Shown here piece by piece: positions 13,486-17,698 of a stretch of 50,881 bases of DNA. The number at the start of each line of letters is the position of its first letter. Positions within the stretch are counted from its first letter, which is position 1. The stretch comes from Blautia sp. Its GTDB lineage: Bacteria; Bacillota; Clostridia; Lachnospirales; Lachnospiraceae. The DNA lies in NCBI GenBank assembly GCA_017463155.1, contig JAFTPT010000037.1, positions 1-50,881 of the forward strand, written 5' to 3'. The position numbers were made by a program, and so were the translations under genes. The notes under the pieces were generated by a model. That model saw nothing but the letters and a program-made list of their open reading frames with translations, was not told where the DNA came from and did not search any database.

Positions 13486-14286
13486 TCATGCTTCGGAAAT
13501 AAAGCAGGACCGTTCCTGGAGCCGGAAGCGCATCCGCCGGCCCGTCTTCGGATGGTCAAACGAAAGGGAAAAAGCACAGAGCGCCAGCGCGTCGGCCGGA
13601 CGGCCGCCGTATTTCCGGTCGCCCAGGATCGGCATGCCGGCGTGGGAAAGCTGCGCGCGGATCTGGTGAAAGCGGCCTGTCTCCAGCCGGATCTGCAAAA
13701 TGAAGGTATCTTCCCCGGCTGCCCTGATCACGCGGTACCAAAGCCGTGCCTTTTTTGCATCCTTCGTGCCCGCCGGCACGATCTCGGTGCGATTGTTCCG
13801 TCCATCCTTCCGAAGATGATCCTCGAGAAGGTGCCCTGTCCATTCCGGGTCTGTGCCGGAAAGCGTGTCCGGCACGCTTCCGCTCACCGGGACCTCCCGT
13901 ACAAGAAGATCTCTCTGTCCGGGTGCTTCCGCTGTCACAACGGCCATGTATTCTTTATCCATGCGGCCATCCTGCACCTGCCGGCCAAGCGATGCGGCGG
14001 CGGCAGGAGTTTTGGCAAAGACCAGGATCCCTTCCACCGGCTGGTCGAGCCTGTGCACCACGCCAAGGTAGGGGATCTCGTTTCTTTGGCCTTTTTTACC
14101 TGTTCCCGCATCCCAGGCCTGCTTCTCCTTTGCCGCAAGGTAGGTCAGAAGCGCGCTGTTAAGGTCCATGGAGCCGGAACGGGCATGCTGCACCGCAAGT
14201 CCTCCCGGCTTATGAAAAACAAGGATCTCATTATCTTCATAGAGGATCCGCCCGGGGATCTCCGCCATCGAAAATGTACTCATCAT
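13486..14286 (-). CDS. RluA-family pseudouridine synthase
   Basis: This 266-residue enzyme isomerises uridine to pseudouridine in RNA. The catalytic aspartate lies in VVHRLDQPVEG, and the family motifs ILYEDNEILVFHKPGGL, GRFHQIRAQLSHAGMPILGD and KYGG are all present. There is no N-terminal S4 domain, so it resembles the short RluA-like proteins of Clostridia; the target base cannot be named. The start at 14286 (or 14283) follows GGAGG; the longer frame to 14343 has no such site. The candidate RNA transcript upstream points toward this gene and could read into it. Confidence 0.9.
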   Translation of the reverse strand: MMSTFSMAEIPGRILYEDNEILVFHKPGGLAVQHARSGSMDLNSALLTYLAAKEKQAWDAGTGKKGQRNEIPYLGVVHRLDQPVEGILVFAKTPAAAASLGRQVQDGRMDKEYMAVVTAEAPGQRDLLVREVPVSGSVPDTLSGTDPEWTGHLLEDHLRKDGRNNRTEIVPAGTKDAKKARLWYRVIRAAGEDTFILQIRLETGRFHQIRAQLSHAGMPILGDRKYGGRPADALALCAFSLSFDHPKTGRRMRFRLQERSCFISEA

Positions 14287-14370
14287 TCTTCCTCCGGGGT
14301 TCATTATGACACAAAAAAACCAGCCTGTCCATGGTCTGTCCATGGATGGCCGGTGCCGCAGACAAAGGAT

Positions 14371-14429
14371 AAGACGGTCATCACTTCTCGTTCGGGTTTC
14401 TCCTTTACCCTGGAAATGATGACCGTCTT
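14371..14429 (-). terminator. Long-loop terminator-like inverted repeat
   Basis: Perfect 13-bp arms (AAGACGGTCATCA and its complement) enclose 33 bases that hold a smaller GGGT/ACCC hairpin. The U-tract on the minus strand is weak (ATCCTTTGT), so it may be a processing or partial termination site rather than a full terminator. Confidence 0.5.
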
Positions 14430-15221
14430 AATGTTCAAAGTTCAATGGTATTTATACCTCTTTCTTCTTTTCTATATTCAGTTGTCTTTATTCAATTGTT
14501 TTCTTCTCGTTTCCTGCTCATGATCTTCTGATCACTTAGAAAGTTTTATAGATTTTGAATTATTATTCACGGGTAATAATTCATCTGATCAGGGAAGAAA
14601 TTCTGGATATACTTTTCCGTTCCTTTGATAAACAATCCTGAACTAATCTTGTATTTAATCCAAATCCGCTTATTTTTCTTTATCTTTTATCTTCTTTCTT
14701 CGATATTCTTCTATCTGTAAATGAGATATATGATAAAGGAAAAGTTCCTGTGGAATTTCTTCTTTTTTATGAATATCTCTTAATATTCCTCTGATGCAAA
14801 GCTTCGTCCCTTATTCCATTGTTGCTTATAAGGATCTCAAAGTATCGTTCTTATCCTTCCACGAACTTCTCCGAAGCTCTTCCTCCGGACGATGTTCTGA
14901 GATAAGGGTTATACTCTTTTGAAGAAAGTTTCTTTACACGATCTTCAAAATCTTTGTACCAGGTTTGTGACATCTGTTCAATATGATGAGCCGCTACTAT
15001 ATGACCTTGATACGTTTGTTCTGATCTCTTTTCAGAACCTCTCTCTTTATTCTCTTCTGTATCAGGTATTTCTTGCAGGAAACGCAGCTCCTGTCACTTC
15101 ATATTGATTGGTAGTTCGCTACCTTCTCAACGGAATTCGTTCCTTTCTCTCTCGCTCCTTATTCTCAGATGATGGGTTTTCATCTGATCGGATACCGGTT
15201 TGTTTTTGTTTTTCTTTTGAT
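14371..15221 (-). ncRNA. Candidate large structured non-coding RNA
   Basis: This is a gene-free stretch of about 850 bases, clearly AT-rich and purine-rich on the minus strand. It begins at a near-consensus promoter (15228-15256) and ends in a 13-bp inverted repeat (14371-14383 with 14417-14429). Many perfect local hairpins line it: 15166-15172/15180-15186, 15132-15135/15140-15143, 15110-15114/15119-15123 (CGAA loop), 15076-15080/15089-15093, 15018-15024/15032-15038, 14771-14776/14783-14788, 14557-14565/14574-14582 and 14521-14525/14530-14534. This resembles giant bacterial RNAs such as ROOL, GOLLD or OLE in general style. Open frames of up to 80 codons without a usable start occur, so a decayed gene or a long 5' leader of the RluA gene remain alternatives. 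Confidence 0.5.
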
Positions 15222-15227
15222 GAACCT

Positions 15228-15256
15228 ATAATACCATCACAATTTGGATTTGTCAA
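15228..15256 (-). promoter_or_regulatory. Near-consensus promoter of the candidate RNA
   Basis: On the minus strand TTGACA (15251-15256) and TATTAT (15228-15233) are spaced exactly 17 bases. No start codon with a long frame follows, which is the main reason to suspect an RNA gene downstream. Confidence 0.75.
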
Positions 15257-15403: not shown

Positions 15404-17698
15404 TTACTTCACTGAATTATAATTGATGAGGCATCCCTTCAGGATGATCTCCCGCTCATCGTCCGTGAGATCGCCCAGGGTCACGGTAAATCTCGTAAGC
15501 TCGCCGGCCTTCACCACATATCCGCTGATCGCTTCTTCTTTATCTTCCACAGCCGCACGGATCCCCGGGAAGAACAGGTAGTCCCCGTTGGCAAACGGCA
15601 GATTGCCCTCCGGGATCACAAAGGGCAGCATGCCCCAGTTGATCAGGTTGCTGCGGTAGCGCTTGGTGGCGTACTCGTTGGCAATGTTGGCCCAGCCGCC
15701 CAGCACCTTCTGGCAGGAGGCCGCCTGCTCCCTGGCGGAACCGTCGCCAGGCTTCACCGCAAAGATCGTGCTGCCGATCCCGAGTTTATGATACGCCGTT
15801 TCCGGGAAGGCCTTGCGGATCGTATCCATCACCGGGGAGAGTTCCGGAAGAGCGGCTGCCACCGCCTGCTCCGCCTCCGTATCCGATGCGTCCGGCTTCT
15901 GAAGCACTTCCTCCAGGGCTGCTTCGCCCTTGTGGACCTCCTTGGCCCGTCCGACATAGGCCGGATCCTTCCTGGACAGGGCGAATTCCGCCAGGCCCAG
16001 CGGGTTGGAGCGGTAGGACGAGGTCTCGCCGGAGGGGATCAGCTCATCCGTCGTGGTCACCGGATCATGGATCTCGGACACCACTTTCAGGATCAGGTCC
16101 TCTGAAAGAGCCGGCATCTTCGGCCAGTCCTTGATATTCGGACCGAACTGGATCTCCACGGAGGGATCCGCGACGCCCTTGCTGTCAAAGACACGGTTCT
16201 CGTAGATCGTCCTGTCAAAGAAATACTTCTGTCCGGTATAACCGCCGGTATACTCCTCCGCCGAGGTCAGGAAGCCCTTGTTGGCCGCCGTCGCCGCGAT
16301 GGATCTCGCGTCCATCAGCGCCACGGAAGAGATCTGTCCGTTCTGGATCTTGGAACCCTCCCGGTTCGGGAAGTTCCGCGTGGTATGGCGGATGCTGAAC
16401 GCGTTGTTGGCCGGCGTGTCGCCCGCGCCGAAGCAGGGACCGCAGAAAGCAGTCTTCACCACGGCGCCGGTGGCCAGCAGATCCGCCAGTACGCCGTTTT
16501 TCGCCAGCTCCATGTAGATCGGGGTGCTGGCCGGATAGACGCTCAGGGTAAAGGTGTCCGCGCCGATGCTCCTGCCGCGCAGGATGTCAGCCGCCGCGCA
16601 GATGTTCTCAAAGCCGCCGCCGGCACAGCCGGCGATAATGCCCTGGTCCACGTAAAGCTTTCCGTCGGTCACCTTGCTCTTTAGAGAATACGGGATCTTT
16701 CCGTCCAGGCTGACAGCCGCCCTCTTCTCCACATCCGCCAGGATATCGCCGAGGTTTTCCTTCACCTCGTCGATGGTGTAGGTGTTGCTCGGATGGAAGG
16801 GCATGGCGATCATCGGTTTGATCTCCGAGAGGTCGATCTCCACACAGCCGTCATAGTAGGCGTTATCCCCGGGCAGGAGTTCTTTATAGTCCTCCTCCCG
16901 GCCGTGGATCTCGTAGAATTCCCGGATCTTCTCATCGGTCTGCCAGATGGAGGACAGGCAGGTGGTCTCTGTCGTCATCACATCCACACCGATCCGGAAA
17001 TCCGCGCTCAGGTTTTTGACGCCCGGTCCCACGAACTCCATGACCTTGTTCTTAACATAGCCGTTCGCGAAGACTTTTCCGATGATGGCGAGCGCCACGT
17101 CCTGCGGGCCGACGCCGGGTCTTGGTTCCCCGGTCAGGTAGATCGCCACGACGCCGGGCATGTTGATGTCGTAGGTCTGGGACAGAAGCTGTTTGACCAG
17201 CTCCGGACCGCCCTCTCCCACAGCCATGGTGCCCAGCGCTCCATAGCGGGTATGGCTGTCGGAGCCGAGGATCATTTTACCTCCGCCGGCAAGCATTTCC
17301 CTGGCGAACTGGTGGATGACGGCCTGGTGGGGCGGTACATACACGCCGCCGTACTTTTTGGCGCAGGTCAGGCCGAACATGTGGTCATCCTCATTGATCG
17401 TGCCGCCCACGGCACAGAGGGAATTGTGGCAGTTGGTCAGTACGTAGGGCACGGGAAATCTTTCGAGTCCGGAGGCCCTGGCTGTCTGGATGATCCCCAC
17501 GAAGGTGATATCATGGGAGGTCAGTTTATCAAAACGGATCTGCAGCTTCTCCATATTCCCGGAGAGATTGTGCTCCTTCAGGATCCCGTAGGCGATGGTC
17601 TTCTTCCCGGCTTCCTCCCGGGAGACCGGAAGGTGCGCTTCCTGCGCGGGAATGATCTTCCCTCCGGACAGGTATACACCCTGTTCATACAGCTTCAT
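15404..17698 (-). CDS. Aconitase-family hydratase, YbhJ-like
   Basis: This 764-residue member of the aconitase superfamily matches the size and layout of E. coli YbhJ-type putative hydratases. Likely 4Fe-4S ligands are C358 (GCAGGGFEN), C419 and C422 (CGPCFGAGD); [20 protein letters not shown] is the aconitase substrate-loop signature. The C-terminal swivel domain (about 610-764, [23 protein letters not shown]) is fused at the end, as in aconitases. The substrate of this subfamily is unknown, so citrate should not be assumed. It is divergent from the 88-residue protein gene at 17888, with interlocked promoters. Confidence 0.88.

Follow-up and report, generated by a model that had tools for sequence, protein, structure and literature searches.

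The question raised by this locus is what is encoded by a stretch of some 850 nt that lies between a gene for an aconitase and a gene for an RluA-type pseudouridine synthase in a 50,881-nucleotide piece of DNA from Blautia sp., the whole of which is called the window below. The original prediction proposed a large structured RNA transcribed from the minus strand, with a decayed gene as its main rival. The promoter that it described is present: TTGACA and TATTAT, 17 bases apart, occupy 15228..15256 on the minus strand with 11 of 12 matches to the consensus, and a TG precedes the -10 hexamer to make it an extended -10 element (TGGTATTAT). From a predicted start near 15220 the RNA would run for about 850 nt to a 3' hairpin (14371..15220, minus strand). 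The sharp contrast in composition with the flanking coding DNA was also borne out, G+C falling from 0.628 at 15501-16000 to 0.336 at 14501-15000 and returning to 0.624 at 13501-14000, and the RNA strand is AT-rich and purine-rich as stated, with 42% A and 62.6% purine. Nor does the region hold an intact gene: no stop-to-stop frame on the RNA strand exceeds 80 amino acids, and a Pfam scan of 10 of the 18 listed frames of the region gave no match except one at E 0.098. The minus strand folds with a predicted energy of -221.8 kcal/mol (z -7.85, 20 shuffles), and the plus strand of the same region gives a z of -4.40. Judged from its sequence, the minus strand at 15256-14371 carries a free-standing gene for an RNA, with a near-consensus promoter, a length of about 850 nt and a 3' hairpin; it combines a promoter of its own and that hairpin with compensatory changes in its stems (see below), and it has no long open reading frame of a known family.

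Homologues of the RNA were sought in several ways, and 59 members, the window included, were collected, all labelled as Lachnospiraceae or as relatives without a firm placement save for two odd labels noted below. Searched at the DNA level, 299 genomes of the family gave matches in 16, of which the window's own genome and six others proved on reading to hold members; nine short matches (L004, L006, L008-L011, L013-L015) were excluded from the member count. When a pattern made from the first members was run on 397 family genomes, it occurred in 22; reading confirmed members in 16, while the matches L022, L028, L034, L035, L038 and L040 came without the surrounding features and were dropped. A fuller pattern of the core gave 40 loci among 84,980 species genomes, 13 of which were already known, and no match in viral contigs. 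Covariance models of the core were also run on 299 family genomes, of which the first model matched 32 and an improved one 39; all 39 places found by the latter read as members, as does L152 from the first model. Among 196 genomes sampled from the order there were three covariance-model matches, all within the window's family, and among 291 sampled from the class there were two, the window's own and L150, which was rejected as a chance match within coding sequence; both samples include family genomes with no such match. In these searches the RNA was met in Lachnospiraceae only, where roughly one in eight of the sampled genomes carries it. More divergent members have probably been missed, because even the weakest matches within the family proved real.

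By their labels, the carriers include Blautia, Dorea, Robinsoniella, Anaerobium acetethylicum, [Clostridium] fimetarium and Galacturonibacter, all Lachnospiraceae, together with other members of that family and unplaced Eubacteriales. Cultured strains are among them, such as Blautia sp. MSJ-19 (L067) and [Clostridium] fimetarium DSM 9179 (L041). Two loci carry labels from elsewhere: L055, labelled uncultured Bacteroides, has a core identical to that of L020 of the window's family, and L053, labelled Thermoflexaceae (a Chloroflexota family), also carries the RNA; both look like mislabelled metagenome assemblies. Fourteen loci were removed as duplicates, and L042 and L080, which are identical at 216 of 220 bases, were both retained in the counts. 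L062 is without the 5' part and L031 stops at the end of its contig. Eleven later members (L105, L142-L149, L152 and L153) stand outside the counts of 58 and 59 used below. The members are mutually related, so that all such counts overstate the case. At the contig end of L007, positions 1774-1825 read like a sequencing adapter of the Nextera type, which we take to be contamination of the assembly end.

The promoter is strikingly uniform across relatives. With TTGAC and TANNNT required and a spacer of 16-18 bases permitted, the pattern fits 48 of the 53 members tested (six members were left out), and the other five have no promoter by this pattern. Although the pattern allowed variation, the spacer is 17 in all 48, the sixth base of the -35 hexamer is A in all 48, and 46 carry the TG extension at -10. 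This uniformity leads us to predict strong transcription. From predicted start to hairpin, the RNA of these 48 members would measure 437-1086 nt, with a median of 760 nt. Upstream in 18 of the 59 members (L025, L026, L030, L032, L048, L098 and others; the window is not included) the constant letters GACGAGAAA occupy the loop of a 5' hairpin on stems that change.

An alignment of 41 members reveals a conserved core in which two helices, a and b, cross as an H-type pseudoknot. In the window (minus strand throughout), the 5' strand of helix a (TCAATATGA) lies at 15099..15107 and its 3' strand (TCATATTGA) at 14978..14986; those of helix b lie at 15092..15097 (GTGACA) and 14967..14972 (TGTCAC), and most relatives have GTGGTA/TACCAC in place of the latter pair. 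Helix a is 99% paired over the 41 members with double changes at 5 of 10 pairs, and helix b is 98% paired with double changes at 3 of 6. The third element of the core, hairpin P3 (14917..14950), is 79.9% paired with double changes at all 12 of its pairs, and in 59 of 59 members it closes a conserved 10-nt loop, TGTRAAGAAA (14938-14929 in the window). Taken together, a, b and P3 show 20 double-change pairs against 14.0 in shuffled alignments, and a covariation score of 0.379 against 0.164, a value reached by none of 500 shuffles; slid controls were 37-47% paired. The P3 loop with its closing base (14939-14929 in the window) also spells, in all 59 members, a start codon with a stop directly after it (GTG-TAA in 44, GTG-TGA in 10, ATG-TAA in three and ATG-TGA in two), a reading which may be structural only.

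The fold extends well beyond the core. In 14 full-length members, from the window's own group, RNAalifold and inspection gave 105 pairs in 16 helices, the H-type pseudoknot included, that are 93.7% paired, a figure favoured by the derivation of the structure from the very alignment on which it was tested; slid controls were 41-48% paired. Double changes occur at 53 of the 105 pairs against 25.5 in shuffled alignments, a number reached in none of 500, and these changes are spread over 13 of the 16 helices, the other three having none. It is clear that not all of these helices are local. Helix c pairs 15084..15091 with 14987..14994 and has 5 of 8 pairs changed on both sides, and a long-range helix (helix 8) joins CTGGTACAAAG at 14952..14962 to CTTTGCATCAG at 14791..14801, is 93.5% paired and has double changes at 4 of 10 pairs. 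Between these strands and downstream of them lie a small hairpin, TTTC-CTGCAA-GAAA (helix 4, 15069..15082), which is nearly invariant so that covariation is not applicable; a helix formed by ACCTGATAC at 15059..15067 with GTATCAAGGT at 15013-15004 (helices 5 and 6); the hairpin GTTCT...AGAAC (helix 7, 15018..15038), found by comparison of the 14 members; a local helix at 14810..14832 in which helix 10 shows double changes and helix 11 does not; another at 14773..14786 (helix 12, double changes at 2 of 5 pairs); the hairpin GAATTATTA..TAATAATTC (helix 13, 14557..14582, double changes at 8 of 9 pairs); and the hairpin CTTTCTAAGT..ATGAGCAGGAAA at 14511..14542, where helix 15 has double changes and helix 14 is nearly invariant. 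RNAalifold also offered a pairing of the 5' strand of helix a with the second mini-ORF described below, which was set aside because the pairing between the two strands of helix a covaries.

A divergent group of members has an additional long-range helix, in which AATCGGAG pairs with CTCCGATT; the partner pairs at 7 or 8 of its 8 places in 20 of 20 members, these having been selected by the presence of the 3' strand. In L142 this helix shows a compensation at two places. The 3' strand scored in L104 lay beyond the hairpin, and the expected CTCCGACT was located at +155. The structure of the predicted RNA is established by comparison between members. What had been proposed as a large structured RNA of about 850 nt has homologues with compensatory changes in their stems. 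Two findings had been named in advance as speaking against the proposal, homologues without such changes and successive frames that match one protein family; the first came out the opposite way, and the second was not seen in the 10 frames scanned. In addition to what had been proposed, the family has the pseudoknot, a conserved ribosome-binding site with a mini-ORF, and a second mini-ORF ahead of the 3' hairpin.

The first mini-ORF of the window is TTG AGA AGG TAG, three codons and a stop, at 15119..15130 on the minus strand, preceded by a ribosome-binding region at 15131..15145 (AAGGAACGAATTCCG) that is partly closed as GGAA/TTCC; some 90 nt separate this site from the predicted 5' end. Its start codon is conserved in 58 of 58 members, with CC-N-NTG directly ahead of helix a in every readable one, and is TTG in 33, ATG in 17, GTG in eight and CTG in none. 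A Shine-Dalgarno sequence of at least 5 nt precedes it in 56 of 57 members, against 36% when the upstream letters are shuffled, and the distance from start codon to helix a is 21-29 nt. Two classes of frame follow. In 28 of the 58 members, the window among them, a stop at codon 3-5 leaves only two to four codons. The frames of the other 30 reach helix a, and 27 of these share one phase, run for 15-31 codons across the 5' strands of the pseudoknot and do so from spacers of 23, 26 or 29 nt; as for the exceptions, L076 and L079 stop within a or b and L074 passes out of phase. The bias in phase relative to the short class has a P of 0.003 if relatedness is ignored, and stops in the other phases within helices a and b explain part of it, so that the count of 27 in 30 is suggestive and not a clean test. 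The encoded peptides resemble one another mainly where base pairing fixes the letters, and vary widely elsewhere. Eleven later members were read only after the idea of a mini-ORF had been formed; ten of them (L142-L146, L148, L149, L152, L105 and L153) have ATG or TTG and a long in-phase frame, and in the eleventh, L147, helix a has been lost and the frame is 14 codons long. The conserved Shine-Dalgarno sequence and start codon strongly suggest that ribosomes bind, or translate, at this site, and translation of the mini-ORF itself is likely.

The second mini-ORF, TTG AAC TTT GAA CAT TAA (five codons and a stop, 14428..14445, minus strand), stands directly before the 3' hairpin. An ATG/TTG/GTG-RAY motif is found in this position in 47 of 58 members examined and opens a frame of five to seven codons in 42 of the 47, six codons in 37, usually TTG AAT AAC/AAA GAA GAA TTT/CAT and a stop; the mini-ORF is absent or unclear in 16 of the 58. 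The tabulated starts are TTG (43), GTG (4) and, in L019, CTG, and L147, read later, has ATG. Its length varies by whole codons, frames of fewer than 16 codons end in TAG (26), TAA (12) or TGA (6), and the stop mostly falls within 3 bases of the hairpin. The Shine-Dalgarno sequence is weak here, reaching 5 nt in 20 of 42 members against 26% in shuffles. Translation of this second frame is probable. The 13-bp inverted repeat said to end the RNA is indeed there, but belongs to a longer stem of 18 bp at 14371..14429, which as a folded piece has a z of -8.9. No T run longer than three was found after this hairpin in the window, and a run of at least five follows it in 16 of 54 members (five were left out). 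A second hairpin followed by T7, at 14313..14353 on the minus strand, is a likely terminator ahead of the RluA gene.

On balance it is probable that these RNAs form a new family of strongly transcribed, structured RNAs, coupled to a ribosome at the mini-ORF and acting in trans. Downstream of the start codon that it occupies, a ribosome covers some 15-19 nt. Ribosomes would bind at the Shine-Dalgarno sequence and start codon 21-29 nt ahead of the pseudoknot, which would therefore begin just past the initiating ribosome. In the short class, two to four codons would bring the ribosome to a stop as its leading edge touches the pseudoknot, whereas in the long class 15-31 codons would carry it across the two 5' strands; most members have another frame, of five to seven codons, that terminates at the base of the 3' hairpin. 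The bound ribosome could serve as a roadblock against the decay of a long and largely untranslated RNA, and could set the pseudoknot open or closed, after which the folded RNA might act in trans on a partner. The proposal that ribosome loading stabilises the RNA and gates the pseudoknot draws on the Shine-Dalgarno stabilisers of Bacilli (PMC3997798); the ribosome, we infer, is part of how the RNA works. Among the points against this reading is that known roadblocks of this kind are at or near the 5' end, and the present site is about 90 nt in. A further step, which we consider rather unlikely, is that a very strongly transcribed RNA of 0.4-1.1 kb captures ribosomes at the two mini-ORFs, one abutting the pseudoknot and the other the 3' hairpin, to make a new class of ribosome-gated RNA machine, which in Lachnospiraceae would signal or restrain the capacity for translation through its active fold.

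Alternatively, the RNA may be purely structural, serving like OLE or ROOL as a scaffold or oligomer, with the ribosome-binding site and mini-ORFs as structural look-alikes. The extensive conserved structure would fit this, as would the weak Shine-Dalgarno sequence of the second mini-ORF and the ability of the CC ahead of the first start codon to pair with the GG of the Shine-Dalgarno sequence, seen in the window as GGAA/TTCC. Pairing alone would not lead one to expect, however, that the first start varies among the three used codons and is never CTG, that the long frames hold one phase at three spacer lengths, or that the second mini-ORF uses all three stops, shifts in length by whole codons and begins with ATG in L147. 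A purely structural role therefore seems improbable, if less so than the other alternatives.

Less probable again is a dual-function regulatory RNA, which would pair with mRNAs in trans and also encode a small functional peptide. The long in-phase frame in 27 of 58 members, and in 10 of the 11 later ones, is what such an RNA should have, but the frame is just two to four codons in 28 of the 58, the window too, and the peptide varies widely outside the paired strands.

It is also possible that the RNA is a leader or attenuator which controls the downstream gene in cis, and this was judged from the neighbours, whose families were named from Pfam on three representatives. The nearest downstream gene is of the RluA type in at least 20 of the 59 members, the window and L036 included, and an aconitase gene lies upstream in at least 12, as in the window (15404..17698, minus strand); neighbour counts are minima because the gene caller also called spurious antisense frames, in L036 for example. 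Ten members (L019, L024, L030, L033, L096, L098, L099, L100, L103 and L104) have a TPR protein downstream, the L104 copy matching Pfam TPR_2 and TPR_8, and the other members are without it there. In five members the downstream gene is a sodium/calcium exchanger, convergent in four of them, and in the rest the downstream genes are diverse and some are convergent. A cis leader would gain from the frequency of RluA, from the position of the second mini-ORF, which ends at the base of a hairpin as in ribosome-controlled attenuators, and from the T run after that hairpin in just 16 of 54 members. Across the 59 members, however, no single kind of co-directional downstream gene was found, control of one particular gene was rejected since the downstream genes differ between members, and in the window the T7 hairpin (14353-14313) and a promoter-like site stand between the RNA and the RluA gene; cis control is accordingly a very doubtful explanation. 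That site, TGGACA-17-CATAAT at 14331-14303, lies ahead of the likely true RluA start at 14286, after GGAGGAAG (gene 13486..14286, minus strand); the listed frame starts at 14343, within the T7 hairpin, and the start at 14286 fits better. A decayed protein gene or a chance structure, the main rival in the original prediction, has open frames of up to 80 codons to recommend it but is next to negligible, given 10 scanned frames with no family match, a promoter, helices and 3' hairpin conserved family-wide, indels that break any long frame, and covariation in both the 41-member and the 14-member sets.

Because the adjacent gene changes between lineages, the RNA probably acts in trans, and an RNA that is its own unit is the most likely arrangement. 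Large structured bacterial RNAs are few, and every new one is a lead to RNA biology not yet known; this family belongs to gut bacteria such as relatives of Blautia, has a near-ideal promoter and roughly equals the known giants in length. It joins, in one RNA, an elaborate fold and start codons seemingly kept by selection, and so allows a direct test of whether a ribosome can be a functional component of an RNA that is not a messenger.

For this family of large structured RNAs from Lachnospiraceae we found no entry in a catalogue. No Rfam family reached its gathering cut-off anywhere in the window, and membership of a known family was rejected on this basis; annotation of these genomes that is based on Rfam would miss the RNA, because no Rfam model catches it. 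A permissive Rfam search (to E 5) of seven homologous loci gave ten weak matches, none of them ROOL, GOLLD or OLE, all far below the cut-offs and to unrelated families; the best (E 0.005, a microRNA family) falls outside the RNA, and in L002 a weak match to mir-286 (E 0.54) runs into the 3' hairpin. The resemblance noted to ROOL, GOLLD and OLE goes no further than size and style; membership was rejected, as their covariance models did not match. Like ROOL, GOLLD is found in phages or prophages, in many cases close to tRNA islands. A search at blastn sensitivity of 50,697 phage records and 72,556 plasmid records gave nothing that matched the window RNA, no tRNA genes were found in the window, and an origin in phages, plasmids or viruses was rejected for want of a match in the collections searched. 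A CsrB-type sponge for CsrA was also rejected; the RNA has 19 GGA against 17.8 in shuffles, and no CsrA gene was found in the 92%-complete host genome. The RNA is described nowhere in the literature searched, which excludes supplements and most subscription journals, and a fragment of it may stand unnamed in the tables of PMC8040213, whose candidates are of 27-219 bp.

With OLE, ROOL and GOLLD the RNA shares a size class of hundreds of nucleotides and an elaborate conserved fold, and the role of those RNAs is not or only partly known (PMC12286853). ROOL is encoded in prophages and phages (PMC12286853), whereas searches of phage, plasmid and viral collections gave no match for the window RNA. 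A further mark of OLE, ROOL and GOLLD is an RNA-only homo-oligomer. Also unlike all three, the present RNA has a conserved Shine-Dalgarno sequence and mini-ORF. RNAIII and SgrS are dual-function regulatory RNAs, smaller than this one, that base-pair with mRNAs and encode a small peptide. They too hold a short frame within a structured transcript, but here the frame is often two to four codons, and it is the initiation site, not the peptide, that is conserved. A pseudoknot and a short ORF also occur together in another conserved RNA, the odc1 (uORF) motif, which PMC8632094 describes as a gene-control element of alpha-proteobacteria named for its associated gene; the present RNA differs in its length of 0.4-1.1 kb and its varied neighbours. 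Finally, in Bacilli a strong Shine-Dalgarno sequence at the 5' end can protect a long untranslated RNA, as in the ermC and cryIIIA leaders (PMC3997798). The ribosome-binding site of the present family could shield a long untranslated RNA in a similar manner; the ermC and cryIIIA stabilisers are mRNA leaders, whereas here the site lies inside a structured RNA, about 90 nt from its predicted 5' end.
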